A DNA stretch of 64,000 nucleotides. Source: Hydractinia symbiolongicarpus. Taxonomy: Eukaryota > Cnidaria > Hydrozoa > Anthoathecata > Hydractiniidae. This document shows positions 3,210 through 31,057 of this stretch, in pieces. A program made the translations under genes and the position numbers. Location of the stretch: the NCBI RefSeq assembly GCF_029227915.1, contig NC_079889.1:4092001-4156000 (forward strand), given 5' to 3'. The first letter of the stretch is position 1; every line of letters starts with the position of its first letter. The notes beneath the pieces were generated by a model. It did not search any database and had not been told where the DNA came from. It saw only the letters and a program-made list of their open reading frames with translations.

Positions 3210-6200
3210 TTAAACTTCGGGATTCAAATCCTCTAAACTTATCCATGTCTCTTTATCTTTATGTCTTCTTTGCTCGCGGATGCTTTCGTTACCTTTGTTT
3301 TTCCGATTTTTTAGCGGCAATAACCGTCTCTTTCCTCTGACTAATGTATCTTCTTTATCTGTTTCTTCTAACAGCTCATCTAACGTTGGACGATGTTTAC
3401 TTTCTGTAAGCCGTGAGCGAATTCTCCTAATTTCTTGTTCGTCTTCTGAGTAATTGATTTTGTCTTCCATACGAACCCTGGGATTCCTTTTTAATTTTTT
3501 TCTTCTAATTGGAACATAGTCGTACAGATAAGGTTCTGTGAACTTGTACTCGTACGGTTTATATGGATGATGTCGACGTCTTACCTCGATTTCTCCGGTA
3601 TCAACGTCCGGTAGTCGCCGTTTCTTTTTTGGTAAAGTAACTTTTTCTAGGTTGACTCTATACTTCTCTCGTCTTTTATGTTTCGATTGATGTTTTACTT
3701 TGGCATTTAAATATGATATTGGAGATGGTTTCCCCAGTATTTTTTGAATAGCTTTTCCCTTTCCCTTCAAAATCGCCTTCACTTCTATTGATGACTCGCT
3801 ATCGTACTTCCTTAAAGTGGAAGATGCTGATGTAGATATCTCACTTGCTGAATCAGCGAGCTCAATAACTTCAATAGGTTTCTCTTCCTTGCGTTTACGA
3901 TGTTTTCTAATTAGAGGCATTGAAACAACTTTTCTCCGCTTGTGTAACCTCGGTAATAATACAGAACGCCTTGGACTTTTTATAATTGTTGGTTTTAAAG
4001 GAATTGCAATTGGAGCTGATGAGTGACGATGATGACTTGGTTGTACGTACCTTTCATAATATTCTGGAAATAGAGTCTTTCGAACGATACGCGCTTTTCT
4101 TGGAGGTGAATATGGTGGCGGTGGTCCTGTGGGAATAGCTGGTAGTCGCAGATGACGGCGGGTAGCATGGTCTTCGTGTCTGTGACGTAAGCTTCTACTG
4201 GAGTTAGATTGGTGTACTGATCGCATATGAGAGTTGTGTTGTGTATCATGATCAATCTCATGGATTGTATATGACGTTGTCACTGGAGCACTGACATTTA
4301 ATTCTTTTTTTCTTCTCGAAGAACGCAGTGACCGATTTCTACTGGTTTGAAATACTTTCTTATTTCTTTTGATAGGTTGAGCATATAGCTCTGAAATGTG
4401 AGATGGCCTCCTAGAGCTTTGGACAGACATCATGTTAGACGGAGATCGACTTCTTTGGTTTTCATTCTCTAATAATGGAGCAAACATGGAACTGGATCTT
4501 CCTTCTTGGGCTTCTTGCATCTGAATTGGTGCAATTATAGAAGATATTGGTTTCTCAGGATCATCTTTGACTATGGGTAATACCCCTCCCTCAACTGGAA
4601 TAGGTGACACATCCCAACTCTGTTTTGCCATCGGTTTTACATCGCCAAAAACAGGCGTTACTGAAACAATATCCTCTGGGATGCTTTCATAGGCTTTAGC
4701 AATTGCTAAAGGTCCGTCTGCTTGATCGAAATCGTCAACATGGTAGACCTGTGGCTTTTCCTTCTTTACTCCACAGCAACATCTGTAACAACATCTACAT
4801 ATGTAGAAGCATAAACAAATTGCCAGCAACATAAAGGCTAAAATAAATAGCGGTAGCATGTATAAAAACCAGTCCTCGGAGGATGTAAACCTGCCAACTG
4901 ATGGTGGTGGTACAAATGGAACTATAGTTGTTCCATTAGTATCATTGCATCTTTGATTTGTTACTGTATCAGACGTTATAAAGTAAAATGGTTTGAGCTT
5001 TTGCTTGTAACTCTCCAAAATTGTTCCATTGTTGTAATCAAAAACAACATCGTACAATCCACTTGTGATATTTTCAAAACATGTTTTATTAGTAAAAGTT
5101 TTATTTGTGTAAGTTATTCCTGTTTGTTTTTCATCTGCTTCCACGACAGATACAATTCTCAGCTCATCTTTTACATCATTGTGTATTGGTGCACTTTGTA
5201 AGGTTTTATAGTAATTATAAATGTATTTATTGTTATGGGAGACATTTTCATAAGAAATATTATTAGTTGTCTTTATGTATATGCAGCAGGAAACGGTTTC
5301 TTTAATTTCCAAAAGTGAAAATGAATCCATGACAAAGTTGCCATCACGATCTGTTGCTTTGACGAATAACACTTTATCAGTGACCACTTTATGACAGTTA
5401 TCCACAGATACAAAAAAGAAAAAATCTTTAGTCTCCGTATAAAACTCCACGTAAGATTTTCTGAGTTCTCGTCTGTCTTGGTCAAGAATTGTGAGATTTA
5501 AGTTTGAAGTTGTGCCATCTTGTTCGTCATAAAAGGTATTTTCAGCAATCACATACCTTAATGGTATGCCACAGGTAATGGTTATTACTGGTATGCTATT
5601 AATGACACGTGGAACTTGCACAATTGGAACGGCAACAGATGATGAAACTTGGATACTTCTAGTGGGAGTTGGCATGACAGCTGTCGTCGTCAATACTTGA
5701 TCAATAACAATATCATAAATTAAACATTTTTTGACAGTTTTATTGAAGACAATGCTTACGTTTGTAAGATTGCTATCACTGCAAGTGTAAAAGACAATAC
5801 TGATATTTAGGATTCTTTTTGCATAACTACTTAAGTGAATCTCATTTTTATTGACCTGTAATGTACTGGCCATATACTCTATAATGTCTATTATTGTACC
5901 TATCAGCGGAACATTTTGGTTTTCTTTGCAAGAAGCAGTTGCTTTCATTACTTTCCTTTTCCCATCAGAGTTTGAATCGGTCCTGTTTAGGAGGATAATA
6001 ATATACGTCAAAGCTTTTCTTCCACCACTATCAGTAGCCTGCAATACATACAGCCTAGTTTCCACTGAGAAGGCATCGTCGTTAGGGTAACCGTACAAAG
6101 TCTTGCTTGTGTCATTATATTGTATCCAGTATTGATTTGGTATGTTTTCACCAGTTGTGAATTTCAGTTTCATTTCCAATTTATTTATACCGCCGTCTTC

Positions 6201-9200
6201 AATGTCAAGGAACGTATCGTTTGCCAATACATAGTTAAAAGCACCGCATGATGTGATATTTATTGTAATGTTACGTGTTGAGACTGGTTTGGTGTTATTT
6301 GGATCAAGACATATGTTATCTTTGGCAATACCGGTCTCTGACGAAGTAAATCCTGGTTTCTTTTCACTTCCTTTAATGGCTTCAAATCTTCCTAAAGCGT
6401 CGACGTAGTATGGGTTGTAAACATCTGGTAGAACGTAAATTTTATTATAAATATAATCAATCTCTTTCTCGTCGCAGTTGTCACCAGTAACTGTACAATT
6501 TGTCCATTGTAGATCAACATTCTGTGGAAGGAATCCATTTCGTGAGAATCTGATAATGCTGATTGTGTTTTTTGTTGAATCTTTAAAATACCTGTACATC
6601 CTTGACAGAAAATTTGCAATTATATCTAAATCCGATAAGGTGTGGTCCAGGTAGGTTGTTGCTTTAAGGCTGATGATGTAATTGTTAATTATTCTTTGTG
6701 GCAATTTTACGTACACGAACGTATCAATACTGTTATTGTCAGAATCGGTGGCTTTTAAAATGAATGTTATTTTTGATGCCAATCCATATTTTATTAGATC
6801 GTTTTGGGTCAAATATCCAGATATGATTCTTGATTCTTGATCGTATTGAATTAAACTTGTTTTACCAACAACTGTTCCGTTTTGGTAGCAAAATTCAATT
6901 GATGTGCCAGTTAATTCGCCATCTCTGCTATCCATGAACAGACCATCCGGCAAGTTGTAATGCAACTGTTGACAAAAATCGATATGTAGCTCAGGTATAG
7001 CATCTGTTACAAAGGGTATTTCACTGGATATGTCTTTACATTTATTCATGTTTAAGCCCTCGACTTTCAGTAATTGAAATTCAGGAAGGAAGTTGTTCAT
7101 CGCAGCAGTCTTAATAACACTGGTATTACTAAGCAAGAAACCCAACAAAAGTTCATTTTGTTTTACTTGACAGAATTCTTCTTTTAAATTGCAATCGTAA
7201 ACGTCCACATATGTACTGCCTACAGCGTATGTCAAGTTAGCAATAGTTATGTGCTCATTGTCAGTAATTGATTTTAACTTTTCATCGAGCTTTCCATGCA
7301 GAATAAAGTTATTTATTGGTTTATAATTTAACGGTTTTAAGGTGACATGCATGAAAAAATTATACGTTCTAAGGTCGCCTTCAACGAGCAATGTAATATT
7401 TTGGGATATTGTATTTCCAACTACATCAATTGCTACAAGAATTAGACTATATCTATTGCTTGGATGGTCTATTATGGTTTGTAAAGTTGGTCTGGCCCTT
7501 AGAATCTGGGTTGTCTCATTAAATTGTATCCAATTGAATTCGTTTAAGTTCCTGAATTGCAAGCGTAAGTTTGAAGTGGATCCTTGTTCGGCATCCAGGA
7601 ATGCACTTTCAGGAATTTTGTAAGTGAGATGGTTACAAATACTGGTTTTTAATTGACCTATTACAGTACCAATTGTCGGCCTTGTGTCATTACACGCTTG
7701 GAGCTGTTTAATATTAACTTCTCTTATTACGACGATATCTAACAGGCTAGACACAAAGTCAAACTTTGGCTTACCTGTTGGTAAAATCAAAAGCGATTGA
7801 ACTCGAGTAAACTCTTTGTTGTTGCAACCATACCCAGTTAAAGAGCACGGTGTAAAAGTGACATTAAATCTTGTGTTTTGACTGGCTGTTTTAGACTTAT
7901 TCCTGCTGTATATGATAATACCATCCTTGAGTAATTTGAGATATGATTCGACTTTGTTAAAAAAGTATTCTATTAAGGTCTGCTTTGAATTAACTCCTGG
8001 GAAATATAACACGTCAGTTGTCACTTGATACTGTCGCACGTATGGTTTATCAAGCATGAACTTAACATTGGTGTAAGCTTGTAAATTGTCAGAATCTGTT
8101 GCAATAGCCTCGTACTCAATATAATTGTACTCTTCAAAGGCCTTCACTATAACAACTCCTTTAAGTGTTTGTGATGAAGTGTTATAAAAGAGAAAGTTAA
8201 TTTTTTCAGTAGGGTAAGTTTGTTTTAACGTCACGGTTAAATTACTTGTTCCACCATCCTTTTCGTCCGCAAACATGTCTTCTGGCAGTCGATATGACAG
8301 TTTCAGACAAGGGTTGATATACACGATGTTATTTTTTGTGGCATTTGGAGGGTATAAAGGTTGATTTAAACAGGGGCCGTACCTTTGAATGTCAAATATG
8401 GTGTTTGATTTTCTATATTCGTATTTAATTTTATCTATAATTAAGAAATTGCAGAAGTTAGCGCTCCTGTCGTCGTCACATGTTGTCCATGAAACTTTAA
8501 TAACTGATGATACTTCCTTCTTCACTATTTTAAAGGCAAGGATTTCTATTGGTTGATTAATTAGCCGCTTTGTTTTGTTCTTCCAATCAAACAACCACGT
8601 TGCTACACTATTTTGAGATTCCAGGGTGATATTTTCGCGTACAACAAATGTTATGTTTCTCGATGCAACATGAAACTTTAGGAAAAAGCTAACAGAGGCG
8701 CTTGCTAGTCGACTGTCCGTAGCAATTATCGTGAATTTATAACCATCAATTGGTTGCTGAACTGCTACTTCGTAGTTACTTGCAATAGTGAGTATTTTTA
8801 AAACACGATCTAGGTGTATCCACGATGTATTCTGTACCTCAAATCCATTTGAAGCATTTAGTAATGTTACTTTCAGGTTCTCTAATGGGCCATCTTCCAC
8901 GTCAGTTATAAAGTTTGACGGCAACTTCGTTCTAAATACGTCGCATGACGTTAAGTTAGGTAAAACAAAGGAGATGTTTTGTTTCGGCTTTTTGTTACTG
9001 GAGTCTAAGCATGGCGTATCTCTGCGCTTAGATAAATATCGCGGAATAAACTGCGGAAGCATGTGATTGTAGAATTCGCGTTTAACTGTTCCAGTTGATT
9101 CTTCTAATTGATGTAACATTCCATCCATACTAATATAATCACAAGGCTGGTATCGCATTGAGCAATTCATGACAATAACTTCCATAATTACGCTATCTGT

Positions 9201-12200
9201 GCCTTTTACGACGGACTTTATCGTTAACGAATTTGCATCTTTCAGGTATGATTTAAACTTTTCGAGTACTAATATTTTTTCTTTTAAGCATGATAAGTTC
9301 AGAGTAGGAGCAATTTCAAATAACACAACCAGCTCGAAACTAGACTGCGGGTACTGAGATACAGTAATGTTTACGGTTGTATTCACCATACTTCCTCTGG
9401 AATCAACAGCTGTTATTATTATTCTGTACCCAGGTACTGGCATGTCAGCTATGGCTTCCTTACTTACCATTGCATATAAAGTTTGTGATGTTGTATCAAA
9501 CTCCAGCCAGCAATTTTGTTTTGTTTGTAATGTCAAAGTTAAATTTCCGGTCCAGCCATCTTCTTCATCGTAAAAAGTTGTGTTCGGTATTTTATATTTC
9601 AAATAACCACATGAAGGAACGTCAATATCTGGTATTGGATTTATCAACATTGGTGGTTTGTTTTGCGAAAGCAAGCATATTTCCAACTTTTTTGTTCTTA
9701 TTTTTTCTATTAAACATTCAGGAAACATAAAGGTGAACAAATCCGCATTGATTTGTCCGTTACTTGAAACGAGACGGATTGTTATGTTTTCTATTTCTTC
9801 ATATTTGCACTGCATTCTTGATAAAGAATAATTCCCATATTCCACCATGATTGAATTATTCTGAAAAGTTTTATAATCGCTTACGACTAAGGTACTGTTT
9901 ACACCAAGAAAAGAATTCATCTTAGTAAGAAATGTATATATTTTAGCTACCGTGGGTGCATTGTAGTAAGATTTGTACTGCGCATGCACAATGAAATTCA
10001 AATTTGGGAACGGTTCAAACATTTCTACATACAAACTGATGTTCGCTGTTTTGTTACTTGAATCTTTTGCCACAAATAAAAACTGATAAACCAAGTTATT
10101 TTTAGTTTCATTAGTAGGTATAATGTAAATCTGCGATTTTTCTCGCACAAAACCAACCCAGTGGTCATCATGAACTACAGTTCCATTCGCGTACGTGAAG
10201 TATAAATCCAAGTTAGCCATCGATCCGTCTTCTTCATCATAAAACGCATCACGTGGGAAGTCGTACACGTTCATTTTTCTATATGAAGGGCTCACCCGGA
10301 TGTTACTAGTGTTTGCAATCGGCGGAAAATCACGATGAAATATAACATTGTCGTTTGAACATTCCAATGAAACTTGATATGACGACTCTTGGCTTTTGAA
10401 CCCAACTTCGTTTGATGAGCAATTTGCCCAAGTGATGTTTAGCTTGTTGTGGTTGCTCTCATATTTGACTAAAAAAGTTGAATTTAACGTTCCATCTGAA
10501 TATTTGTCTGATATGTTTTGCAAGATGTTAATTACAGTTGTGATTATTGACGTTAGGTTATTTACACATGTAAATGAGAGCGTGACGCTATTCTTATAAC
10601 TTGGTGTTTCTCCACATATCTTGATTTGCAACACTGTCTCAGCTGCTGCGCTACCAGTGTCGTAGGCAATTAATAAATACCTATAACCATTCTTTGGCTG
10701 ATTTCTTTTTACAACTTCGGTGGGCATACCATACAGAGTTTTAGTGGTCATGTTGTATTGTAGCCATAAGTCAGCAGGTAAAGGACTCCGATCGCCCTGA
10801 ACAACTTCGACAATTAAGTTTGGTGTATTTCCCTCTTCCGGGTCTACAAATGTTTCATCAGGTATTGTATATGAAAACAATCCGCAACTATTTGCACACA
10901 ACGTTTCAGGATGTTTCCCAACCGCCAGTACTTTGTGTTTTGAGCACGGACCAGATTTTTCATCCAGCACTGATACATTATAAAACTCTGGAAGAAGAAC
11001 ATTGGTAAGATTAGGATTTGGATTTGAAGTCGTCCCATTATATAACATTTCGGATATTTTGTTGATATTTACAAAATCGCATATTTCAGTTCGTAAGGAG
11101 CAGTTACTCCACATGATATAGCTTGGTGTGGTCACGTCACCACGGGAAAAATACACAACATTAATATTGCGATCATCCTTGCTTTTGAAGTAGGTAACTA
11201 TTTTATCGATAAGCGTTTGTATCAATTGAGAATCGCATACAGTCTTTGCGAAGGTTGTCTTAAAACTCAAGGCAACTTTGTAAGTAACATTAGGAACGTT
11301 GTTATCCAGATTCAAGGAAACAAAGGTTCGTGCAGAACTTCCTATTGCATTTGCAGCTCGAAGCAAGTACTTGTTAGGGGAATTTGGCTGGGACTGTGTT
11401 GGTATGCCGATAATTTTATTTGCATCTAATTGAATCCAAGAATTACAGGAGATTGGCAACCCATCTGTGTACAAGAGACTGTATATAAACGACTGTTTAT
11501 TTCCATCATATGAGTCGTAAAATATTCCATTAGGTATTGTGTGTTTAATGCTTCCACAATATGATACACCAATGGAAATATTATACAACGAACGAATAGT
11601 GTCTGGCACGACAATGCTTGATGAAGGCAGTATTTGGGAGGACAAGGTAGGCAATATTGTTACCTGACTTTCATTTATGCACGATTTATCATTCTTGATG
11701 ATTAAGTCCCGAACAGAAAATTCTGGTAGAAAGACAAAGGAAAATTGAGCACGACATTCCCCTTTTTCGTCCATGATGAAGTTTTGCATCCAACTTGCTA
11801 AATTTTTATCACATTTACCGCTATTTAAGGTACAGTTTGACCAACCAATCGAAACAAACATGCCATCCTTACGAAACTCGATAATATCAATATACCTTTC
11901 GTCCACATCGTTGTAAAACATAGCAATCCTCCGAACAATCAAACTTTCTAATGTATGGTTTGGTAAACGCAAATCAAAATTTAGGGTCAAATTTAGTGTA
12001 ATATTTTGCAGAATCGGGTAGTCATTATTTTCAACATTCACTTGTATATTCATGCTAACAGAATAACCATCGTTATCAGTTGCGGTCAACATAAACAAAT
12101 ATCCATTTGATGGTATCATACTGTTTTTAATTTTAATAGGTAAACCAGTTATCACTTGCTTTTTCTGATCAAACTGCAACCAAAACGAATCTAAAATAGA

Positions 12201-15200
12201 CTCACCGTTGATAAACCTTAAAGTGAGTTTTAATCGCCTTGTGTATCCGTCCTTATAATCATAAAAGGTATCGGGTGGTATTTCATAAAACAAGTGCGAG
12301 CATTTTCGTACTGTTAATGGTGGTATGTAACGGTTAATAAGTGGTTTATCGCTAGGAGATGGCGATGGCGTTATTGGATATGCGGTTGATGATGTAGTGC
12401 ACGGGGGTTTACGAATGATTTTTAAATCCACCAATGTGTATTGAGGTAAAAAAGTATTTTTAAAAGCAGCTTTCACATTTCCATTGGATTCTAGCAGCTT
12501 ACTTTTTAAAAAGTGTAAGTCATTCTCCGGACACGTGGTAAAATCAAAGCTGCAATTCGTCCATGTAAATAAAATCAGTCCCGGGTCAAGTCGTGCTTCT
12601 TTAAAATCAATCGATTTAACATTTGCAGGAGATTTGTCATTAAAATATTGAGAAATTTTGTTGATGATTTGAAATAGGTCGTTAACGTATGGATATTCAT
12701 CTACTAGGGAACATCGTATTTTCATTTCTACAAGAACACCGATCACAATGGGATCAGTTAGTTCTTGAAATGGTAATATTGTCGTTGCCGAAAGATTTTT
12801 AGAATCTGTACCTTGCAGAATAAATCTAAATCCGTTCCGAGGTTGTCTTAAAATGTCCGAAGTCTTCAATAAGCCATATGCAACTTGCAAGTTAGAATTA
12901 AATTGTATCCATGATGTTTTGGACAAGACCGTTCCATTTACGTCAAACAATTTTAAACTTAAAGCGGATGTCGTACCATCTTCGTCAATAAATATATTTT
13001 CTGGGATATGATATGCAAATGATTTGCAAAAGGTTATTTCAATCGGCGGTATTATATTTTGAACACGTGGTGGGTAGTTGATTTTAACGGTTGGAGTAGG
13101 CACTACAGAAAGCGACTTAGTAGGAGTGATGCTCATGTACTGTGTTGATGACCCCTGAGTACATTGGTTAGCTACATCCCCGGTTACATTTTTAACATGA
13201 TAATAAGGTTTCAAAACTTCTTGAAAGCTATCGTTTGGTCGTCCATCTGTAATAAACATGTTGACTAGCATCGCAACAACGTCTTTCTTGCATTGATGGC
13301 GTAGGGTACAATTAGACCATGACAAAGTCACTTCCTCTTCTGTTCGTTCAAAAGACAATACCAACACCTTCGTTACGTCACGGTCTCCTATATATGAGCA
13401 TATCTTACTCACTAAAAACAACTGTGCGGTTAAATCAGGTGTTTGGTAATCAAAAAATCTTCTTACTGTGACATTTAGTTGAAAGTTAATTACAGGCTTA
13501 GGCGGTAGCACTAAAGTAAGAACCGTCGTTACCGAGGCTCCTCTATGGTCAGTTGCCCGAAGAAGATAATTTAAGTAACTCTTTGTAGTTTTCATATCGT
13601 TGACTCGAGGATGTCCATAAACAACCTGTGTGGAACTTACAAACAACACCCATGACGTTTTTGGTAATTTTCTTCCATCAAAGGTAAGTAGATCCAATGA
13701 TAAATAACGCGTAAAGCCATCTTCCCTGTCAAAAAATGTATTGGCTGGAATTCGGTAACTGAATGAGGAGCATAAGGGTACATCAATGAATACCAACGGT
13801 TTTGAAACTACTGGAGGGGTATTTTTAATGGGTGTTGGCGTAGGTAAGATCACAGATGTAGCTGATATCCTTGATATACTTATTGATGAAGTTGGTATAA
13901 TAACGCTGATTACTGAAGAACATGTGACACCATATGAAAATTGAACAAATGTGACAATAAAGATAGGAGCAAGACTGGCTATAAATTCAGCGTTGATGAT
14001 TTTGTTGTAGTACAGTATTTTAGATTGGATAGTTTTTAATTTGTTAACATTACAGGTTGAAACTAAACTGCAGTTGGACCATTCAATATCGATGTAGTTA
14101 CCTTCAATTCTTGCTGATTTAATCATGATGGTATTAGTAGCTTCATCTCCATAAAATGCTGATATTTTAGATCTTAGTCCAGATAGCATTCCTAGTTTTT
14201 TCATGTTAGACGAATATAGGTACGAGCGAGCAAAAAATACATGACTTAGATGAGTGAAATCATCTACTAATTCAATGGATATGTTACTCCTTGCCATTGC
14301 TCCTTTAGAATCTGTGGCAATTAAACGAAATTTATTGTTCTTTCGGATGTTCTCTAAAACAATGATGCCATAAATTACTTGAGTTGTTTTGTTAAATTTG
14401 ACACATGAGTTTTCTTTGACCTCAGTACCATCCACATTTACCAAGTTTACATCCAATTTAGGTGTATAGCCATCTTCGTGATCATAAAACGTATTAGCTG
14501 GAATCTGATACCAGATGTCAGAACAGGGGTTTACTTTTACATATAAAGTTTTTATTAAGACTGTCGGTTGTTTGTTGGTAAGAATTACTGAAGATGATGG
14601 TTTGACTGATGTTGTTGCAGATTTACCACAATCCCTCTCGCTTTGTATTATACCTGATATAACCACAAACTCTGGTACCATTGCTTGGGTAAATTCAGTG
14701 TTCAAACTATTTTCGTGTGTAAATAACTTGGCCTTAACTTTCTTTCCTTGTTTATCGCTACATATATCATTAATGGAACAGAAGTACCACGATATAATAA
14801 TCTGGGGATATAAAACTGTAGACTTTTTGAACTTCGTGATCTGCATTTCTCCATCTGTATCGTTGCCAAGATACTGGAAAACCTTCTTAATCCAAAGCAA
14901 CTGTGTTTCAGCATAGCTCGATTGAGTTGTTGTATACACATAGCTTTGCATTACGATGCTATATACTGGGGCTTGTGAACTCCCGTCTACAATAATATGC
15001 AGACGTTGCGATACTGATGCTTTTTCGTTGTCTTGGCAAACAAGTAAATACGTCAGAACATTATTAACAGCACTTTCTATATCTGATTCTGTTATAATAC
15101 CATAGAGTTTCTGGGTTGATGGATTGAGATGAATCCAAGCGCTATCTCCTACACTTGTTCCATTTGTATACTGTAATTTAACTTTTAATTTCGGTGTATA

Positions 15201-18200
15201 TCCGTCCTGGCTATCAAAACACGTTTTTTCTGCAATGTCATATTCAAATTTTCTGCATCTTCTTACAGTTAAAACTGGTACAGGCTTGTAAATGATTGGT
15301 GGTGTGTTTAACGTGGGTGTAGGACTTGGAAGAAGTTGAATTGAACTTGTTGAGTAAGATGAAACTGACAACATACAAGTGTCATTATTTGAAATTGTCA
15401 CTGATGTTATAATAACTGTCGGTTTAATTAAAACAACAAACTTAACCTTTAAAACACCTTGCTGGAAGATAAGTGATTTCAGTTTTTCAATATCTCTCAG
15501 TCCGCATTGAAATCCACAAATTGACCATCTGAAGTTAATTTTCTTTTGTGAAGTTCCATACACTACAACTGAATGTAGTTTCAACCCATACCACGCAGGA
15601 TCCGCAGAAATAAAGTATTCGGAGAGACTTTTTGATAACAATATCTTTAACTGGCTTATTGATGTGTGTCTGTATAAAGAGCCATGAGTGTCTATGATGA
15701 TATCCTGTGCGCTGTTTCGTTGAGGTATTACATTAATCTGTAACGGTTGATGTATGGCTAATCCACCACTATCTACTGCCAGGATTCTGTATACGAATCT
15801 TTTCTCTTCCCTACCTTCAACATCCGGTAACACACCAATGAAAGTCTGCGTGGTTTTGTTAAAAGATATCCACGAGTTTTCAGGTAAAATATAGCCTTCC
15901 TGATTATGTATCTTTATTTTCAAACTTCTGGTTAAACCATCTTCTACATCAAAAAATGCATCCTCTGGCAGCTGGTAAGTAAACATACTACACGATGTAA
16001 CATTTTGCATTGGAATCCATTTTAAGATGGCTGGAGGTAGGTTCTGAGTCGGTGGAGTAATTGTCGGTGTTGGGGAAGGCTTCAACACTGTGCTAGATAT
16101 CATCGTTGATAATGCACATGGTCCTTCAAGTTGAAATGAAAATTGGCCAACGTTTACATCAGGATGCATAGCTTGAATAAAATCTGACTTAACATTTATG
16201 TTTTCCCAGAAAAATATGCTTTTTACATCTTTTATCTGTTTGTAATTGCAGTAAGTTGTCTCTACACTACAAGTGGTCCATGTTATTCTCATTAATCCAG
16301 ATTGGTATCGAGTAAAACTCAGTACTCGGACATTGTTTGTTGTCTGCATGAAGTTATTTAACTTTTGGCATAGTAACTTCACAACATAGACATCATAATC
16401 CAGCGGAGATTTCAAAACAAATACAAGGGAAAATGAGTGCGTCACATGTTTTCTGGATGGTAATTGAAGGGAGATAAATTGATAGCCGCTTAAGCCATAT
16501 TTGTTTTTGGCCAAAAGTTTAAATGTCGCTGTAGATTCTTGACTCTTAAGAATATCATCCGTAATCACTGCATGTATGACTTGTGTATTGCCATCTAACG
16601 TTATCCATGCTGAAGTGTTTAACAGTTTATTATGAGTGTTGACCAAATTTAATTGAAGATTCCTCGTAAAACCGTCCTGGGGATCATAAAACGCTTTGTC
16701 GGGGACTTGATAATAAAATTTACTGCATTGTATTAGGTTTAGCCTTGGTATAACATTTATTGGCATCGGGGGATATCTTGTTGGAGATGTAGTGGGACTT
16801 ACGGTTGTGCTTGAGGGCGAAGGTTTGAGGGTCATTGTTGATAACTTTAAAGTGGACTGAGTAAAAAATGTGCACGGTTCTAAAAACTCAACAGATACTT
16901 GATGTAGATTATATTCTGGCTTCATGGCATTTTTAAAAGAAACTGTGGGAACACCATTTAATACAATCTTACGGGTAATTTTTCTTAAAATATCCACAGG
17001 ACAAGGCGTGTACGGCAGTTGATATAACGTCCATTCAATCTCCAATTCTTGTTTGTCAACAATGCGCCTAAATGTTATGATTTGAATTTTGTACAGCTTA
17101 ATGTACTCAAATAACTTTCGTGTTATTAGGATCTGCTCGTTCACATCTGGTAAAGAAGGATCGTAAAATTGTGATATTTTCATGCTGAAACGTATGTTAT
17201 ATTGGATATGAAATGTAGGTAGAGTTACTGTTACTGCTGTGCTTGCCTTCAATCCACTAGAATCTGTTGCAACTAGCATATACTTGTAACCATTTGATGG
17301 TTGTTGTATGTAATCGGACAACTTTAAAAGTCCATAAATAACTTGCAAATTTTGATTCCATTGCAACCACGACTTCTTGTTCAAAACTTGACCGTCGATG
17401 AAAAATAATTCCAAGTGTAAATTCCTTGTGTTCCCGTCTTCATTATCCAGAAATGTATTTTGATCAATGTAATAGAATATCGCTTCTCCGTAATTTATCG
17501 TTATTGGTCTAACTTCAACTACAACATGAGGGGGGTGATTAGGAGTAACCGTCGGTGTAGGTGTTGGTGTGGTTTTGGTTGTTGCAGTGGATGTAATTTG
17601 GTCACATTTGCCATCCATTTTCACACTTGTTAAAGATATTTGGGGATGCATTGCTAATATTAGGTATGGATTAATGTAAATAGAACTTGTAAAGAGTTTG
17701 CTCATTACTTCTTTAAAGTAAGAAGTTCTGCAATTGCCAAGTGTCATTTTTGTATCTTGATATCCTATAGTAAACATACTAGGTGCTGGTTTGTCTCGAT
17801 TAAAGCGAGTAAACCCAGTTTTACTTGCAGGGTTGTTACCATATAGGTAGGAATGAAGCTTCTGGTGAATGTAAAATAAGATGTCTACGTTTGATGTATC
17901 TAACGACTGCAGGTACTGACCAGTAAAAGTGAAAGTAAAAGCATTCAAAGATAGTGTGTCCATTGCAGATATATGAATTATCATATCGACAAATAAGCCT
18001 TTAGAATTCACAGCACGAAGTATATATTGAAATACTTTCTCGTTACTGCCAGAAAGGTCATGTTGTGTTAAAATACCAGTTAAAATTTGCTGTGTCGAGA
18101 TTTGTATCCAAGAAAATTTGGAAAGAACAGTACGATCTTGCGAAAGTATCAGCAGCTTCAAATTTCTCGTAGAACCATCACTTCTGTCTGAGAAAGAACC

Positions 18201-21200
18201 TTCAGGGATGGCATATTGTAGTTTGGAACTAGTACTAGCATGTAAAAGCGGTATTTGTTGCTTTATCACTGGTCCTTGCGAAGGCGGTGGCGCTGGAGTT
18301 ACATGACTACAAAAGCCAAAGCTTTGCACTGTGACTTTATCAATTGTCATCTCAGGAAGAAACACCTGTATCAAAAACGGATTAGTGTTATGACCAAAAT
18401 AAGTCAACTTGTGTGTTACTGATTCAACTCTTGTGACGTTACACCTTTGATTTGAATTAACGAAATTATAAATAAACGACATTGATAAACGGCTAGGAGT
18501 TTCACTCGTTCTTTGAAATGTTTCAATTTCCATTCCTCCTCTCGAATCCATGTATTGGAAATATCGCTGCAAGAACAAAGTCAAAATTTGCAGATCATTC
18601 ATAGAGGAGCTAAAATATTCCAATGCAGTTATGGCAACATTAAGGCCACCTGTTGGCAGAGCTGCTCGGAAACAATCCAGAGTGATAATCATATTCGTGG
18701 TGCGTTTATACGAGTTTGTAGCCGACAAAATGAATTGAAACTTTCGTGTATTAGATCCTTGAAGAACATCAATATGCAACGAAGCATAGATTTCTTGTGC
18801 TGCCATATTGAACTGAATCCAGGAAGACCGTGACAGAGCAGTGCCATCAAGATTCCACATAGCTAGTTTCAAGTAGGGGGTATATCCGTCGTTTGCATCA
18901 AAAAATGTGTTGAAAGGTATTTTAAATCGATAGTAGGAGATCGAATATACTTGCAGAGCAGCGAGTCTGTTCAGTATGAGAGGACTAGTCGTAATTATCG
19001 TAGATGTCGTGCCTGGTGACGTGGTTGTAGATGATTGGCAGTTTTGATTAACGGAAGCAGTAATGTTTTTAATAATGTACTGAGGTGCAAGAAAGTGGGC
19101 AAAATTTGAATTAGCTATGTGGTTGTTTAGAACAACTTTTGATGATAAGGTTTTGACAGCTGCAATTGGGCATTTTAAAGAATCAGATAATGTGCAGTTT
19201 GTCCAAGCAAATGTTACTTGGTTTTGTTCTTCGTTTCTTGAGAAGGACAAAATATTTACCCAGGAAAATTTTGGTTCACCAAAATATGTGGACACTTTCA
19301 GCAAGAGAAGTAATTGCTCGTTAATATCTGGAGCATTTGAATCGTAGAATTTAGTTACGGTCATTGTTATTTGATAAAAAATTTGCGGTACCTTTTCTGG
19401 GAGTTGAACCTTGAATGGCAAATAGGTTTCTAACGCTAAAGAATTCCTTGCAACTAGATAATATATCTCTTCTTTCCCACCAGCTTTGATGTAATCACTA
19501 ACCTTTAGAAAGCCGTATAAAACTTGGATATCGGTATCTATTTGAAGCCATGATGTCTTATTTACAACTTGATAAGAGCCAGTTTGTAAAGAGAGGTTTA
19601 AATTTCTCGTGTTACCATCATTGATGTCATGGAAAAGATTCTCTGGGATTGGATACACAAAAAAATCACAAAAAGTTGCTAAAAAGGGACCAATTGCATA
19701 CATTGCCTTTGGACCTTTACCGTGCGTAGGTTGAGAAGCTGTTGGTGTTATTAATGATGCTGTTGATGGCTTAATAGTGGTTAGGACAGTGGTTTTTAAT
19801 GGTGGGTTGCTATTGATAGTGGTTTTAAATTGATTCGACATTGTTGGTGTCGGTATAACTGTTAAAGTCTGCATTTGATGCTGCGTATATTTTCCTTTTA
19901 TATCAGACACATATGGCAACATAAAATTCGCAAAGTCACTAGAAATATCATTACCATCATATAATTTTCTCTTAATTGCGTTAAAAGTGTTTAAATGGTT
20001 CCCAGGATCAAAAAAGTTGGAATAAGTCCAGTGAACCTTAACGTACTGAGGATACAGCCCTGTTCTGTAAAAATAAGTAACACTGATGTGTTCCATTGTC
20101 AACATAATTTTTAAGTACTCGCTTAATCTCTTTAAAAACGCCAGCAAGATATCTCCATCAGTTAATTCTCTATTGTAAAACGTGTTGAACTCGAGTTCAA
20201 ACGTAGCGTACGGAATTGAAAATACCATATGTGCTTGTATTTGAAATTCCAAACTTGTTTTTACTCCGCCGGAATCGGTTGCTTCTAACGTGAACCGTAC
20301 GTTTGAAATAAAGGGAGGTCTGTTCACCTGATAAATGTGTAACGCCATCCGGTCAATTATCACCATAAATATATTTTGTATCCCATCCGTGCTCACTTTC
20401 AGTTTTAAACTGCTTGTAAATCCATCTTCCGCATCATAGAATGTATTAACTGGCAAGTCATATTTTGTTGTTAAATAACGGGTTACGTTTAGGGTGGGAA
20501 TTGGGCAAAGTACGATGGGTTTCGAATTGCCACCACACTGTCGTTTGTCAACTGTCGTACCAAGGTATTTAAAATTCGGCGCGAACGTCTCAATGAATTT
20601 TGTATTTTGAGTTATTCTCCACTTGTTACTTATTGCCATCATATCACAAGGTTGACATTTAATAGCTTGATCAGTAAAGGATAAAGAAAACGTGTTCTTT
20701 TGCTCTAAGACATTTGAAAATTTGGTTACAAGAATATTTTTTAAGTTAGTGTCATTCAACTGTACCCGGATTAGATTTACTAAATCTACCAACACGTGAA
20801 TGTAAGGTGTGTTGCGATCCATTTTGCTTTCAACAATCAATACGAAGTGATGACAAGGCGGATGCAGAACATTATTTTTCACCGTTAAACGTAAATTAAG
20901 ACTGGCTGTGGCATTACATTGATCAGCAGCAACTAACTGAAAACTATACCCTTCTGGTGGCTGATTGATAAGTACTTCGTAAGTTGCCCAAGTATAAATA
21001 AACTGCAAGGCTGAACTAAATTGTATCCAATCGGACTTCGCTATTTCTTGACCGGATGACCATCTTAGTGATAGTTTTAAACGTCTTGTATTGCCGTCTT
21101 CTTTGTCAATAAAAAGATTCTCTTTCAGATTGATATGAGTAAATTCATTCGGTTGTATTTTAAGGGAAATTTGCGAATGATTATTCAATGGCGGAGTATT

Positions 21201-24200
21201 CGTGCGACAATCTGCAATGCTTGCTTGCCGAGGCGACTGCATTTGGGGTAAGTTAAAAAGGAAAGGTGACCTTCTTTTTCTTGAATTTGAAAGTCCAAAC
21301 ATAAAAAAATTTGATTCAGTAACATTGTCATATTGTGTGGAATTTAATGTCTTTGAAAGTTCTTTCAGACAATTGGATCTATAGTTGTTGGTCTCGTACA
21401 TTCTGACACCCGATAAAGCCACATACTTCTGAAGGAACATCAGTTTTAACAAATCATTGATTTTATCGCTGTGGCAATTTGTCTTTATTGATACGCAAAT
21501 GTTTCGTTTATGCCCAAATGTGTTTCCAGCTTCATAAACGATTTTCATTACCCTTGGTATCTTTCTGACGAGTTGGTAGTTTGGATACATCACTTCGATT
21601 GTTTCAAAAAACCTGATTACATTTTTAAAAGGTTGTTTCCTGACACTCTCCTTAGGTAACAATGACATCAGTATGTCTCCATCATCAGCCAACTTCTGTG
21701 GTTGTAATTTTAATATGGTTATACATTTCAATGTATCATTTGTATTGTCAACCAATGTAGTGAAAATGATTTGTTTTTCACGTCGAGAATGGTAAAGTGG
21801 CAGAATAACAATGGCTTTTAACCGGGAGATAAAGTAAATCCATTTTGGCAGGCTGCGTCTTGGTATCACCTAAAAGTAATTTTAAATATATAAGTAAGAA
21901 GGTATTGCTTATTGCAGCTATCAGCCGAATCGCGAAGGACTCTATTCCTTTTTCGTATAATACTATAGCATGGAGATTTCGTAGCTGAGGTTGAGTACCA
22001 CACAGATAAGTCAACCCAAGCTGTGCTACTCGTGCTCTACCTTGGTAGAGACTGGCCTCGAATTTAAATTATTGCCCTTGTTAATAATGTAACTTATTTT
22101 CGTAGTAATCGAGGCAAGTTACGCATGCGCCTGATAGCGCATGCTTAAATAGAACTTTCCCACCCATTTTTATTCACAAGTCAATTCTATTCGTACGGGT
22201 TAGACAACCCGCCCACCCTTCCCTGTAAGTTGAGGAAATTACTCAGAAAGTAATATTAAGATTGGCTGAGTGACATAGAATCTTATACCTATTTATACGG
22301 TTTTTCTGGAAAAATAGACGAAGTCATTCCCTTTGGCTCGGGATAACCGGAAGTTTTTATCCTGGAATCGGTATAAGACTCAAAGGTATAATCTCAGCAA
22401 GGTAACAAGTCTTAAAATGCTTACACGAGCTAAGAATAATTGTGCTACTATTAAGAAGTATAGACGGAAAATCCGTAAGAAATTGTTATTATTGTAACCT
22501 GAGTTGTGTTGTAATTATATAATATTGAGTATATTAGGAATTGTATATACGTACGAATACCGAAGATGACTCCACTCAAAGATGACTCCACTCACTAAGT
22601 TTTATTTCTCAAATAGCGTCCTAAGTCTTGAAGAGATTACGTAGACAATAAGGCTCTTATTTTCGATTGAACAAAGTGAATAAGAAAATAATACTAATAT
22701 TATGTAGTACTACTCTTCAGCCCGTGGAAAAATTTACGGGATCGCCTTCCTTTTTATACCTCATTGCGTGCGTCTCGCTACTTGCGCAGCTAAGCTACCA
22801 TTTTGCGTGACAAACAGGCATGCGGACAGATGTATACGGGTAATATAATATAGACTAGTCGTTAGCCCGTGGAAAAATCCATACCATTTTGCGTGACAGA
22901 GAGACGGACGGACGGACGGACAGACGTATCCCGTATACGTCTGTCCGTCCGTCCGTTATAATATAGCATATTTTTAAAAAATAACTATCCCGCAACAAAA
23001 GCTGAAATAAGAACACAGTTTACAAACCGTTTTTACTCCATCATAACAAAAACAATCGGTCAATATTATTTTATTTTGCAGAATAAGTCTCTGCGTAAAT
23101 TCAAAATTATTTGTGCAACCAGGTTGAACGTCTAGTACAGGCAAACAGCTTTGAAAACACTGATGGAACAATTAATGGTAGTCGTAAACTGTTGCACACG
23201 ATCAGGTGAAGCACTTTAGTACTGGTATACAGTATGTCGTAAATCAAGTGAAGCGCATACACCATTATAGTGTTGCGACTATTTTTTCAAAAAATAACTT
23301 TCCCGCAACGTTAGATGAAATAAAAACAGAGTTAAAACCGTTGTTACCCCATCAGGGCAAAAACAGTCGGTCAATTATTCCTGTGAAAGTAAAAAGATTA
23401 ATTGTGACACCAAGCTGACCGCTTACTTAGGCGTATCGGGATAATACCCTGTTGAAAAAACTTTATCGCAGAATCTGTTTAAATAAAAACAAACAGGAAA
23501 CAGTCCATTGTTAAAACCGGGCTGAGCAGTTAGTCCGGGTAAACCGTGTTGCACAACCGTACCGGCATGATTACCGAGAAAGTTTAAAACTTAATTATCA
23601 CAGTAGGCTGACCCCTTGGTACAGAAAAAAAGTCTGTTGTTAACACTGGGCTAAGCGCTTAGTACAGTTAAACATAGTTGAACAGGCATATAGGCGTAAT
23701 AAGCTTTTCCAAAAAAACTTCATTGCAACTATGGCTTAAATAAAAACACAGGGAACAGCCTGTTGTTAGCTACCTGTCCAGTTAAAACAATTGCTGAACC
23801 ATTTTATTTTCAGAAAAAGTGTTCAGAAAAATAATAAAAGGCACAGCCTTAACTTAAAAATAAATGTTGGCTAGGATAAAAATCTCTTATACCAAACAGA
23901 ATAGCAATAAGTGAGGCTCTAGCTAGCTAGCTAATCTTCGTTCCTAGCCAAACATCCTAAAACTGGTGCGTGTAAGATCTGTACGTGGCTAAAAAACGTG
24001 ACAATATATTTATCGTAACATTGAAAACAAACAGAAAACAAATATTACAAATATATAAAGCTGTTAGAAGATAAAAAAGTAAAACAGGCCTACAAACCTC
24101 ACACACTGACCATACACACGACCGTTACCAAAATCAAAATGACCTTCGTTCCGCGAAGATCTTGGATTCTGTCTGGTCGCGAAAATCTTTTTTCTTTAAA

Positions 24201-25757
24201 GAATTGGGCGTCGTGATTGGTATACTACGCGCGAGCGGTCAAAACAAAGTCGGTAAAAATATATCGCATTTGATATTGGTGCGCATTTTAAAAATTTCGT
24301 GTTTCCGTTACGGGACACGGCTTTCGCGGACACACAGACAGACAGACGGAATACGGCTATTAATAAAGAGATAGTAGATATCGTTGAGACATAAAAATTG
24401 CATAAAAAGAACTAAAGCTTAAAAATTGTAAAAGTTAAAAACATGTTAAGAAAATAATAAGACTTTGTAAACCTATTAAAGGTAGCTGAATGACTATATA
24501 TACAACATTTTACATGTACCACACCCTTTGTAGCAATTATCACCGAATTTGGTCGAGATAGTAAATTAAGCACAATTCAAGAAAAACCTTAAGGCTTCAA
24601 ATTGAAAAAGTAAAGAACATTTGAAGGCTTCCTTCAAGATGATCTTTTTACAAAAAAACACGTGTAGATTAGTGCACCAATCAAAGTCAAACTTCAGTTT
24701 TAAGAATCTTTGTCGTTGTATGAGGCTCCATGTAATAAAAAAAAAATTGCAGTTTTTATACGATCAGCTCTTTGTCCTTTTTATTAATTCATGGCAGGCT
24801 GGTTGTTGCTTTCATGTTGTTGTGGTTTTTTTGTGAGATTAAAGACTAAAGTAGTCTATAAGATGTTGCTTATAAAAAGAAAAGTGTTTTAATTACAAAT
24901 GGAGATTATTTGTTTTCCTACCCTTATGTAATTGGGACGCAGGGAAATCCATAAATCCATGTATAGAATAAAAAAATTTAACCTATAGTTGCACAGCCTA
25001 CTTCTCCTTTATAGCTTACACCAGTTTTGACACAAGATTTTGTTATTAAGGTCGGTTTCCACTAGGCATCTTAACCACTATATGTATGTCAACCGCGTTA
25101 ACCACTAACTGTATGTTAAACGCCTGAAACAGACGCTTATCTAAAAAATACCTGCTGACATCCACATTAAAAGCATTTTTGGCGTCAAAACGTCTTTTTT
25201 GTCTCTACATTGTGCAGAATATAATGCAGACGTATAAAGAAAACATGCAGAAAGATGTTGGCTTTTTTTAAGCCCGATATAAACGATGATTAGTCTGCTA
25301 AAAAATTATCAAAAAATTGATTTTAAAATAGACGTCTAATAGGCGTTTAATTGGTGTGTAATTAGCGTCTAACTCGCGATACTGGAACATTTTACGTTCA
25401 CACTAGGCGCTAGGGCGCTTTAAAAATCATACTCAGCAAGATTAACGCCAGTTAGACGCCTGGTGGGAACAGAACTTTAGTGCAATATAATGGGCAAAAA
25501 TAAAGACTTTGCAAACACGTTACCTCAACTTTACGTGGATATGGTAATTGATAGACAAACACTTTCCCCAACTTTACAAACACTTTGACTTCTTTTTCAA
25601 ATTGATTTGTAATGTTATTGTACCGAAATTCATTCCATGAATCTTCTTCAGTATGACGTTTTAATAAATCATTCTCAAAACGATCGTGTTTACTGCAAGA
25701 TGTTATGCAAATTATGTAGCCAATCAGAAACAAACAGCTTTTTAAATTATTAGCCAT
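3210..25757 (-). CDS. Giant multi-module dystroglycan-like membrane protein (2 exons, about 6,297 aa)
   Basis: Exon 1 is 25524-25757 (78 codons). Exon 2 is 3210-21869 (18,660 bp, ends TAA). The donor G|GTAACG and acceptor TTTTAG|GTG are both phase 0, and an in-frame TAG sits directly before exon 2, so the exon needs an upstream partner. Order: signal peptide (about 1-20); an N-terminal CADG fold split by the intron, then an S6-like stretch; RKRR at about 275-278; 23 repeats of a CADG domain (signatures F-x-D-x-x-D-G, SWIQF, ATDSxG) plus a SEA/S6-like domain (W-T/S-N-C...C); Thr/Pro linkers; one transmembrane helix; a tail of about 520 residues. Each repeat resembles the second CADG + SEA-like part of dystroglycan, for example IPANTFYDHEDG. 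Known dystroglycans are about 900 residues. Likely role, by inference: cell-surface receptor linking matrix or neighbouring cells to a dystrophin-type cytoskeletal complex. It is intact. The splice join is a prediction. Confidence 0.88.
3213..4769 (-). other. Cytoplasmic tail with PPPPY motif and basic NLS-like runs
   Basis: About 520 residues, rich in Lys, Arg and Ser. A PPPPY motif (4110-4124, within TGPPPPYSPP) matches the WW-domain ligand at the C-terminus of dystroglycan that binds dystrophin/utrophin, but here it lies about 300 residues before the end. A block near 4515-4570 (DDPEKPISS...APIQMQE) recalls the acidic DDSKPPPSS...LILQEE stretch of the beta-dystroglycan tail. PKKKRRLP (about 3609-3634) and HKRRK/RKHRKRK runs resemble monopartite nuclear signals. 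The canonical dystroglycan tail is only about 120 residues. Confidence 0.7.
4770..4871 (-). other. Transmembrane helix and cysteine-rich inner face of the giant protein
   Basis: The hydrophobic run starting WFLYMLPLFILAFMLLAI is followed by a cluster of seven Cys mixed with Arg (CRCCYRCCCG) and then KKEK. It is the only convincing membrane span after the signal peptide, giving type I topology. The Cys cluster is a likely palmitoylation patch (inference). Confidence 0.85.
5300..21125 (-). repeat. Coding tandem array of 23 CADG + S6-like modules
   Basis: The F-x-D-x-x-D-G hallmark recurs near 21100, 20425, 19615, 18885, 18175, 17435, 16675, 15935, 15200, 14470, 13715, 12975, 12250, 11500, 10835, 10235, 9560, 8895, 8250, 7580, 6925, 6195 and 5515, a period of about 640-800 bp. 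Each unit has about 100 residues of CADG (ending ATDSxG or similar) and about 120 residues of SEA/S6-like domain with a conserved W-x-N-C-S/T and a closing Cys. The first 13 units often have Thr/Ser/Pro linkers; the later ones are shorter and mostly lack them. Copies differ strongly in protein sequence, so the expansion is old. Module 10 replaces SW with SC, and module 17 has a shortened CADG. Confidence 0.85.
7215..7220 (-). other. Gly-Ser pair in module 20 at the dystroglycan autoproteolysis position
   Basis: Module 20 reads AVGSTYVDV before the usual W/Y-x-C strand, aligning by eye with the TRGSIVVEW segment where vertebrate dystroglycan is cut between Gly and Ser. The other modules I inspected lack a GS pair there, including the membrane-proximal one (ADEKQTGITYTNKT). 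Alignment is by eye. Confidence 0.4.
21270..21281 (-). other. Furin-type cleavage motif RKRR after the N-terminal module
   Basis: Codons for RKRR lie at residues 275-278 of the joined protein, between the first CADG/S6-like unit and the repeat array. Vertebrate dystroglycan has a furin site (RVRR, about residue 312) at the equivalent boundary that releases the alpha-dystroglycan N-terminal domain. Motif and position are seen; cleavage is inferred. Confidence 0.6.
22706..22853 (+). mobile_element. Short ACTAGTC/TTAGCCCGTGG interspersed element, copy 1
   Basis: About 148 bp: cagcccgtggaaaaat...acggg, then a CGTGCGTCTCGCT block, then gacagatgtatacggg. The same order of blocks recurs at 22854, and inverted at 45926-46032 and (degraded) 48340-48402. 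Non-coding, of MITE or SINE size; class not determined. Confidence 0.5.
22854..22975 (+). mobile_element. ACTAGTC element copy 2 with GACG-repeat hairpin
   Basis: Starts actagtcgttagcccgtgg, directly abutting copy 1. Its middle is shortened and its end is a perfect palindrome (about 22908-22956): a (GACG)n/GACAGACGTAT arm and its reverse complement around a 5-base spacer. This looks like a foldback rearrangement of the element's GACAGACG end. Confidence 0.5.
22975..23790 (+). repeat. Degenerate tandem repeat, monomer about 110-130 bp
   Basis: Recurring landmarks: ggctgagcgcttagtacagg, taaaccgtgttgcac, aactttcccgcaac, aaataaaaacacaggaaacag, ttgttaacactgggct. Copies of the gggctgag/gggctaag block sit at 23519 and 23648 (129 bp apart), with looser ones near 23118 and 23411. 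It is a worn satellite-like array inside the giant gene's intron; a related array lies at 27205-27960, on the other side of exon 1. Confidence 0.55.
24100..24374. repeat. Likely interspersed-repeat end with GACAGACAGACGGAATACGG
   Basis: Ends in a GACAGACAGACGGAATACGG block followed by ctattaat. The string aatacggctattaat recurs near 29901, so this is probably a dispersed repeat terminus. Class not determined. Confidence 0.3.
25524..25757 (-). CDS. Exon 1 of the giant dystroglycan-like gene: signal peptide and first CADG strand
   Basis: ATG at 25755-25757 opens MANNLKSCLFLIGYIICI, a classic signal peptide. The exon ends with a stretch containing KVFVKLGKVFVYQLPYP, which matches the first strands of a dystroglycan-type cadherin-like domain (V-x-x-G-x-x-F-x-Y-x-x-P). 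A GTAACG donor follows in phase 0. Exon 2 opens with RRSLPKWIYF, matching the LPxWLxF part of the same fold, so the two pieces rebuild one domain. The first 78 codons therefore belong to the giant gene rather than to a separate small protein. The intron is about 3.65 kb; splicing is inferred, not shown. Confidence 0.72.
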
Positions 25758-28882: not shown

Positions 28883-29397
28883 GAAGAAGAAGAAGAAGAA
28901 GAAGAAGAAGAAGAAGAAGAAGAAGAAGAAGAAGAAGAAGAAGAAGAAGAAAAAGAAGAAGAAGAAGAAGAAGAAGAAGAAGAAGAAGAAGAAGAAGAAG
29001 AAGAAGAAGAAGAAGAAGAAGAAGAAGAAGAAGAAGAAGAAGAAGAAGAAGAAGAAGAAGAAGAAGAAGAAGAAGAAGAAGAAGAAGAAGAAGAAGAAGA
29101 AGAAGAAGAAGAAGAAGAAGAAGAAGAAGAAGAAGAAGAAGAAGAAGAAGAAGAAGAAGAAGAAGAAGAAGAAGAAGAAGAAGAAGAAGAAGAAGAAGAA
29201 GAAGAAGAAGAAGAAGAAGAAGAAGAAGAAGAAGAAGAAGAAGAAGAAGAAGAAGAAGAAGAAGAAGAAGAAGAAGAAGAAGAAGAAAAAGAAGAAGAAG
29301 AAGAAGAAGAAGAAGAAGGATGAAGAAGAAGAAGGATGAAGAAGAAGAAGGATGAAGAAGAAGAAGGATGAAGAAGAAGAAGGATGAAAAAGGATGT
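28883..29397 (+). repeat. GAA/TTC microsatellite, about 436 bp, with variant tail
   Basis: Near-pure (GAA)n from 28883 to 29318, with single interruptions (aaaaag) near 28950 and 29286. A minisatellite tail follows, with units gaagaagaagaaggat to 29397. All purines lie on the plus strand, so the tract can form triplex DNA. The apparent poly-Lys and poly-Phe frames across it are artefacts. Confidence 0.97.

Positions 29398-31057
<1,660 letters not shown>

Follow-up and report, generated by a model that had tools for sequence, protein, structure and literature searches.

A dystroglycan-related giant protein with 23 IG2-SEA modules in the hydrozoan Hydractinia symbiolongicarpus and its place among two families of ordered module arrays

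Dystroglycan, one of the main receptors for matrix and linked to several muscular dystrophies, normally has a single IG2-SEA unit, which is cleaved and lies next to the membrane. Orthodox DAG1 proteins (vertebrate DAG1, and P0024 from Acropora) have one C-terminal IG2-SEA unit (plus IG1-S6), Gly-Ser cleavage and a C-terminal PPxY, all of which differ in the Hydractinia symbiolongicarpus protein described here, although both share the module fold, the cysteines of alignment columns 190 and 234, the IG1 intron and a furin-type site.

Amplification of this module has been reported before: it is twofold in arthropods, in one hemichordate and in one placozoan, and sixfold in Nematostella, and longer ectodomains have been speculated to set the region that binds laminin at a greater distance from the cell (PMC4582122). 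Like the gene studied here, that of Nematostella vectensis has multiplied the same module in tandem (six IG2_MAT_NU; PMC4582122) and within a large 3' exon (PMC5216574). Its product, like P0023 from Actinia tenebrosa and our protein, is without the Gly-Ser maturation site, which is reportedly not conserved in nematodes either (PMC4582122), and P0023 resembles our protein further in its IG1-like start and its furin-type site. However, these sea-anemone arrays have six modules against 23, and P0023 retains an orthodox tail (RKTF..KRKPVVF, C-terminal PPAYVPP) and has the extra cysteine pair discussed below in none of its six modules. A Hydra dystroglycan, of at most about 800 residues judging by exon lengths, is also listed (PMC4582122, PMC5216574); in our own search for a hydrozoan orthodox dystroglycan Desmophyllum was the one named match among 35, so the orthodox Hydra protein rests here on those two papers.

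The nearest matches in architecture are giant proteins deposited as uncharacterised. Hydra LOC105846337 (P0007) and the partial Clytia P0004 have the same architecture and are collinear members of what we call family A, whereas Hydra LOC105844463 (P0022) and Clytia P0020, likewise of this architecture, belong to family B, in which the modules follow another order and the tail has no PPPPYSPP block. Given these records and the published twofold and sixfold arrays (PMC4582122), the statement in a sequence-only reading of the locus that it knew of no described family with this architecture has to be corrected. Our survey of the open-licence literature found no dystroglycan described as having over six modules, and the word dystroglycan is absent from the main text of the Hydra mesoglea proteome paper (PMC6079037). 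As far as we searched within that literature, the 23-fold array, the two ordered giant families, the loss of the orthodox tail as well as of the cleavage site, and the coupling of two cysteines are new.

The gene and its array

The window analysed is a 64,000-nucleotide stretch of contig NC_079889.1 (positions 4,092,001 to 4,156,000), and the gene occupies 3210-25757 of its minus strand, with the ATG at 25757 and the stop at 3210-3212. Exon 1 (25524-25757, minus strand; 78 codons, residues 1-78) encodes the start codon, a hydrophobic signal-peptide-like leader and the first half of an IG1-like domain, and is followed by a GT...AG intron (21870-25523, minus strand) of predicted phase 0. Exon 2 (3210-21869, minus strand) is a single 18.66-kb open frame comprising, in order, the second half of the IG1-like domain, the N-terminal region, the 23 modules, the membrane span, the cytoplasmic tail and the stop; the in-frame stop directly before it is the TAG of the splice acceptor. 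The predicted join yields 6,297 residues with one terminal stop, in agreement with the single gene of about 6,300 residues proposed earlier. Database protein P0002 has the same 23 modules, with 5,736 of 6,203 aligned residues identical (92.5%) and one internal gap of two residues. The locus is confirmed as a genuine gene of an animal, encoding a giant protein of the cell surface.

The IG2-SEA (CADG plus S6-like) array spans 4908-21221 on the minus strand (residues 295-5732). A module profile, seeded with 16 motif matches and then iterated, found 23 modules with domain E-values of 4e-50 to 5e-82, which is the number first read from the sequence; a six-frame profile scan of the window returned the same 23 plus two plus-strand matches no better than chance (E 0.2 and 0.36), and no second giant gene. 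Homology of the repeats to dystroglycan, asserted in that reading too, is borne out by sequence matches and fold: the representative module 12 (12366-13100, minus strand) matched dystroglycan 8yt8 in phmmer with E 3.8e-17 (query 12360-13100) and Pfam DAG1 above cut-off. When eight modules were compared with Pfam DAG1, two scored above cut-off, three below it and three had no match, and an NCBIfam scan gave nothing near any cut-off. The IG2 plus MAT/SEA module of the dystroglycan (DAG1) family is therefore present. Since the other 22 modules are only 19-36% identical to module 12, the array is neither a recent duplication nor a collapsed assembly repeat, an explanation that the module order common to other proteins also contradicts. 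Tandem Repeats Finder covers periods of up to 500 bases and is uninformative for units of about 700.

Module cores average 216 residues. In the distal array (modules 3-13; 11640-19742, minus strand) the Ser/Thr/Pro-rich linkers between folded cores have 13-37 residues, except for the one of 55 that precedes module 3, and in the proximal array (modules 14-21; 6324-11597, minus strand) the linkers have 6-15; along the chain, linkers measure 13-55 residues after modules 2-13, 6-15 after modules 14-20, and 23 and 31 after modules 21 and 22. Serine, threonine and proline make up 52% of all linkers together, against 22% across the array region. The protein has no single central mucin-like region, but these Ser/Thr/Pro-rich linkers of 6-55 residues instead; the mucin-like regions of Hydra and Nematostella dystroglycans have been reported to be unusually short (PMC4582122). 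Overall, the distal array resembles a row of folded beads on glycosylated spacers, and packing looks tighter toward the membrane. In a model of a module pair, for which at least one alignment row was out of register (the 100% row), linker residues 229-254 had pLDDT below 50 (disordered) and pTM was 0.47, the relative orientation of the modules not being fixed by the model; a rigid filament is on these values unsupported. The TPTP linkers that the earlier reading counted as canonical do occur here, three times against 0.13 expected by shuffling, but P0003, P0005, P0007 (Hydra) and P0019 have none, and because the motif is missing from both Hydra P0007 and its close relative P0019 it is no feature of the family. 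Matriglycan multivalency through TPTP linkers is accordingly a weak candidate, the linkers being Ser/Thr/Pro-rich anyway and four relatives doing without the motif.

The start of the protein bears a weak but above-chance resemblance to IG1. The orthodox N-terminal profile was uninformative, four of its six rows being open frames without an N terminus, and direct shuffles were used instead: the score against Actinia was 59 versus 31.5 ± 4.6 (0/1000 shuffles), and Hydra P0007 gave 1/1000 against Actinia and 6/1000 against Acropora, whereas the comparison of the 23-module protein with Acropora (424/1000) counts against the resemblance; a profile comparison reached only 14% probability. The intron lies at the conserved IG1 intron position of dystroglycan genes: as predicted, it precedes V-I-P-R-R-S-L-P-K-W, and the human intron, conserved between residues 95 and 96 (PMC5216574), precedes V-S-A-A-G-K-E-A-L-P-S-W, the positions matching within two residues. 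The furin-type site RKRR (21270-21281, minus strand; residues 275-278) ends the N-terminal region; the strict furin motif is absent from Hydra P0007. For an S6 half after IG1 there was no Pfam or PDB sequence match, and a single-sequence model of the N-terminal region was too poor to use (pLDDT 38.6).

Elsewhere in the window, an unbroken non-LTR retrotransposon-like frame of 1,043 residues (49266-52397, plus strand) contains a reverse transcriptase (PF00078, E 1.1e-38), with an endonuclease match that falls just short of its cut-off, and a 665-residue open frame (41145-43142, minus strand) with no Pfam match at E 0.01 may belong either to a mobile element or to a host gene. Two long, near-perfect triplet runs, (GAA) at 28883-29382 and (TAT) at 30313-30808, have about 165 copies each. 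Three short open frames (35854-36171, minus; 53315-53668, plus; 59674-59985, minus) have a common N-KR-LH-DTP-like pattern that, to our eye, recalls CAP/SCP secreted proteins, for which a Pfam scan of the three gave no support.

Lost cleavage motif, second cysteine pair and altered tail

The Gly-Ser autoproteolysis (maturation) motif occurs in none of the 23 modules, the membrane-proximal one included; a looser scan places Gly-Ser near the right position in module 20, where P0002 has Asp-Ser. Across 24 proteins the motif was found in 6 of 437 modules, one of the six belonging to the orthodox Acropora P0024. The comparison set (P0023-P0059 plus a PDB fragment), which is biased in consisting mostly of matches to a motif-bearing query, has it in 36 of 38 rows, the misses being Actinia P0023 and the truncated P0057.

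Columns 190 and 234, which we take to form the known dystroglycan disulfide, are both cysteine in all 36 usable orthodox modules and in all six of Actinia. The giant proteins have a second pair, one cysteine per domain, in column 25 (IG2) and column 183 (SEA, past the lost cleavage site), neither of which is cysteine in the 29 usable orthodox modules (of 38) or in the six Actinia modules. In family A together with P0008, 94 modules have both, 34 neither and seven one (135 usable of 146, 11 being dropped for gaps), and the corresponding counts in family B are 187, 54 and four (245 usable of 282, 37 dropped). Of 103 giant modules, 7 were mixed, where shuffling gave 42.9 and never fewer than 29; these shuffles ignore relatedness, so the better guide to the coupling is parsimony on the module tree, which gave one joint gain, 12 joint losses and six single changes. 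Control pairs in family A (25/190 and 25/234) were unassociated (p 0.75 and 0.34); in family B, 25/190 (p 8.5e-6) and 183/190 (p 1.2e-7) were weakly associated, mainly in the opposite sense, and columns 190/234 did not co-vary (p 1). Module 23, adjoining the membrane, carries just one cysteine of this second pair, columns 25 and 183. Paired gain and loss is what a disulfide predicts, and from this co-occurrence we infer a bond between the cysteines of columns 25 and 183 that would join both sides of the former alpha/beta boundary.

The transmembrane span (4800-4856, minus strand), a 19-residue hydrophobic window from residue 5750, is followed by a Cys-rich juxtamembrane stretch and a cytoplasmic tail that exceeds 500 residues and abounds in basic stretches. 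PPxY motifs bind WW domains; here the motif PPPPYSPP (4101-4124, minus strand; residues 5994-6001) lies within the block LRLPAIP-GPPPPYSPPR, which is nearly invariant in P0005, P0007 and P0019 despite diverging flanks, and P0003, of family A, is without the PPPPYSPP block. Its tyrosine stands 299 residues ahead of the C terminus, and a profile comparison with two anthozoan orthodox tails gave a match confined to the membrane span (probability 7%) and none to the rest of the beta-dystroglycan tail. Hence the canonical order claimed at the outset holds in part: the signal-peptide-like start, furin-type site, membrane span and PPxY are all present, but the Gly-Ser motif is gone, the PPxY is internal and the tail is orthodox only in its membrane span.

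Two families of giant relatives

The sequence-only reading had proposed looking for the same array in other cnidarians, and a search with exon 2 residues 218-1700 indeed recovered 21 giant relatives of 3,488-7,450 residues and 10-32 modules, several of them fragments, with two each from Hydra vulgaris and Clytia hemisphaerica. Families were defined from an all-against-all comparison of 23 proteins, each of at least six modules, by their reciprocal best module pairs. Family A (the 23-module gene, P0002, P0003, P0004, P0005, P0007 and P0019) and family B (14 proteins) each have a conserved module order and together take in 20 of the 21 relatives, P0008 and Actinia P0023 being unlinked; no A-B pair among the 23 proteins passed collinearity. 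The order of the 23-module protein is conserved against five diverged relatives (P0003, P0004, P0005, P0007 and P0019) besides the near-identical P0002, P0003 linking only to it and to P0002 and not to the other four of family A. Hydra and Clytia have one protein of each family, and the records suggest that P0003 (A) and P0015 (B) sit on one contig. The 23-module protein belongs to a family that is conserved among hydroids and related animals but undescribed.

P0008 is partly collinear with the 23-module gene (6/7 pairs, shuffle p 0.008) and carries PPPPYSP; its modules 7-9 are almost identical to one another (tree distances about 0.1), so module duplication is ongoing in some relatives. P0014, of family B, has 7,450 residues and 32 modules, against 23 in the window protein, and a second hydrophobic stretch at residue 6331, so that a merger of two genes is possible.

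A weakly resolved tree built on 116 modules of 14 selected proteins sets seven orthodox modules (PDB fragment included) apart from the giant modules in one split (0.856), makes the six Actinia modules a clade of their own (0.999) and groups the last modules of A and B (0.949). The separate Actinia clade indicates that the hydrozoan arrays were probably amplified independently of the sixfold sea-anemone array, and families A and B probably descend from a common ancestor.

Proposed function and alternatives

We propose, with a probability of about 0.6, that the 23-module protein is a dystroglycan-derived giant single-pass receptor, a single-chain, disulfide-reinforced tether that docks WW proteins. 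The N-terminal region would be trimmed at the furin-type site, the chain would stay whole, without alpha/beta cleavage, and in most modules the cysteine pair would lock IG2 to SEA by a disulfide. The ectodomain may act as an extended tether, a glycosylated string of beads measuring a few hundred nanometres as estimated by residue counts, that brings its ligand-binding distal end through glycocalyx and basement membrane, and the tail may dock WW-domain proteins via PPPPY and so couple the tether to the cytoskeleton or to trafficking. In Nematostella the mesoglea is about 0.5-1.5 µm thick and the basement membrane 70-130 nm (PMC12549020); the estimated length exceeds the latter and falls short of the former, which favours a tether through glycocalyx and basement membrane over the mesoglea-spanning filament suggested earlier, an idea that the disordered linker of the pair model does not favour either.

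Three other explanations have to be weighed against this tether. The gene could instead be an ordinary orthologue, in which case it would be the one dystroglycan of the species, lengthened in its ectodomain, alpha/beta-cleaved and bound to laminin via matriglycan and to dystrophin via its tail. Its dystroglycan modules, IG1-like start, IG1 intron position, furin-type site and PPxY would all fit, but a protein with no Gly-Ser motif in any module, a tail matching the orthodox one in the membrane span alone and modules that the tree separates from the orthodox ones, in a group where Hydra is reported to have an orthodox dystroglycan (PMC4582122, PMC5216574) besides the two giant proteins found here, makes this quite improbable. 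Somewhat better placed, yet still unlikely, is homophilic or allorecognition-type adhesion, in which arrays on neighbouring cells would pair with each other like cadherins and not with matrix; the module order kept in each family over deep divergence runs counter to what rapid turnover would give. That the array is divided among several genes, or is a silent relic, seems to us very improbable indeed: the splice is predicted, from DNA alone, but exon 2 is unbroken, P0002 is intact, and an NCBI Hydra protein named 'isoform X1' has 18 modules, the membrane span and the PPPPYSPP tail.

More tentatively, and at somewhat less than even odds, we suggest that hydrozoans, perhaps medusozoans, derived giant single-chain tethers in two ancient paralogous families, autoproteolysis having been dropped and the IG2-SEA disulfide gained once, before or during multiplication. 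A non-covalent alpha/beta receptor would thereby have become a covalently joined cable able to bear load, equipped with a WW-docking tail of its own and working alongside an ordinary dystroglycan. Long arrays of an apparently uncleaved IG2-SEA unit, with their order kept and a second cysteine pair added, amount to a natural experiment on the mechanics of this unit. Hydra and Clytia are both genetically manipulable, and these arrays offer in them a testable disulfide and an undescribed class of adhesion receptor.
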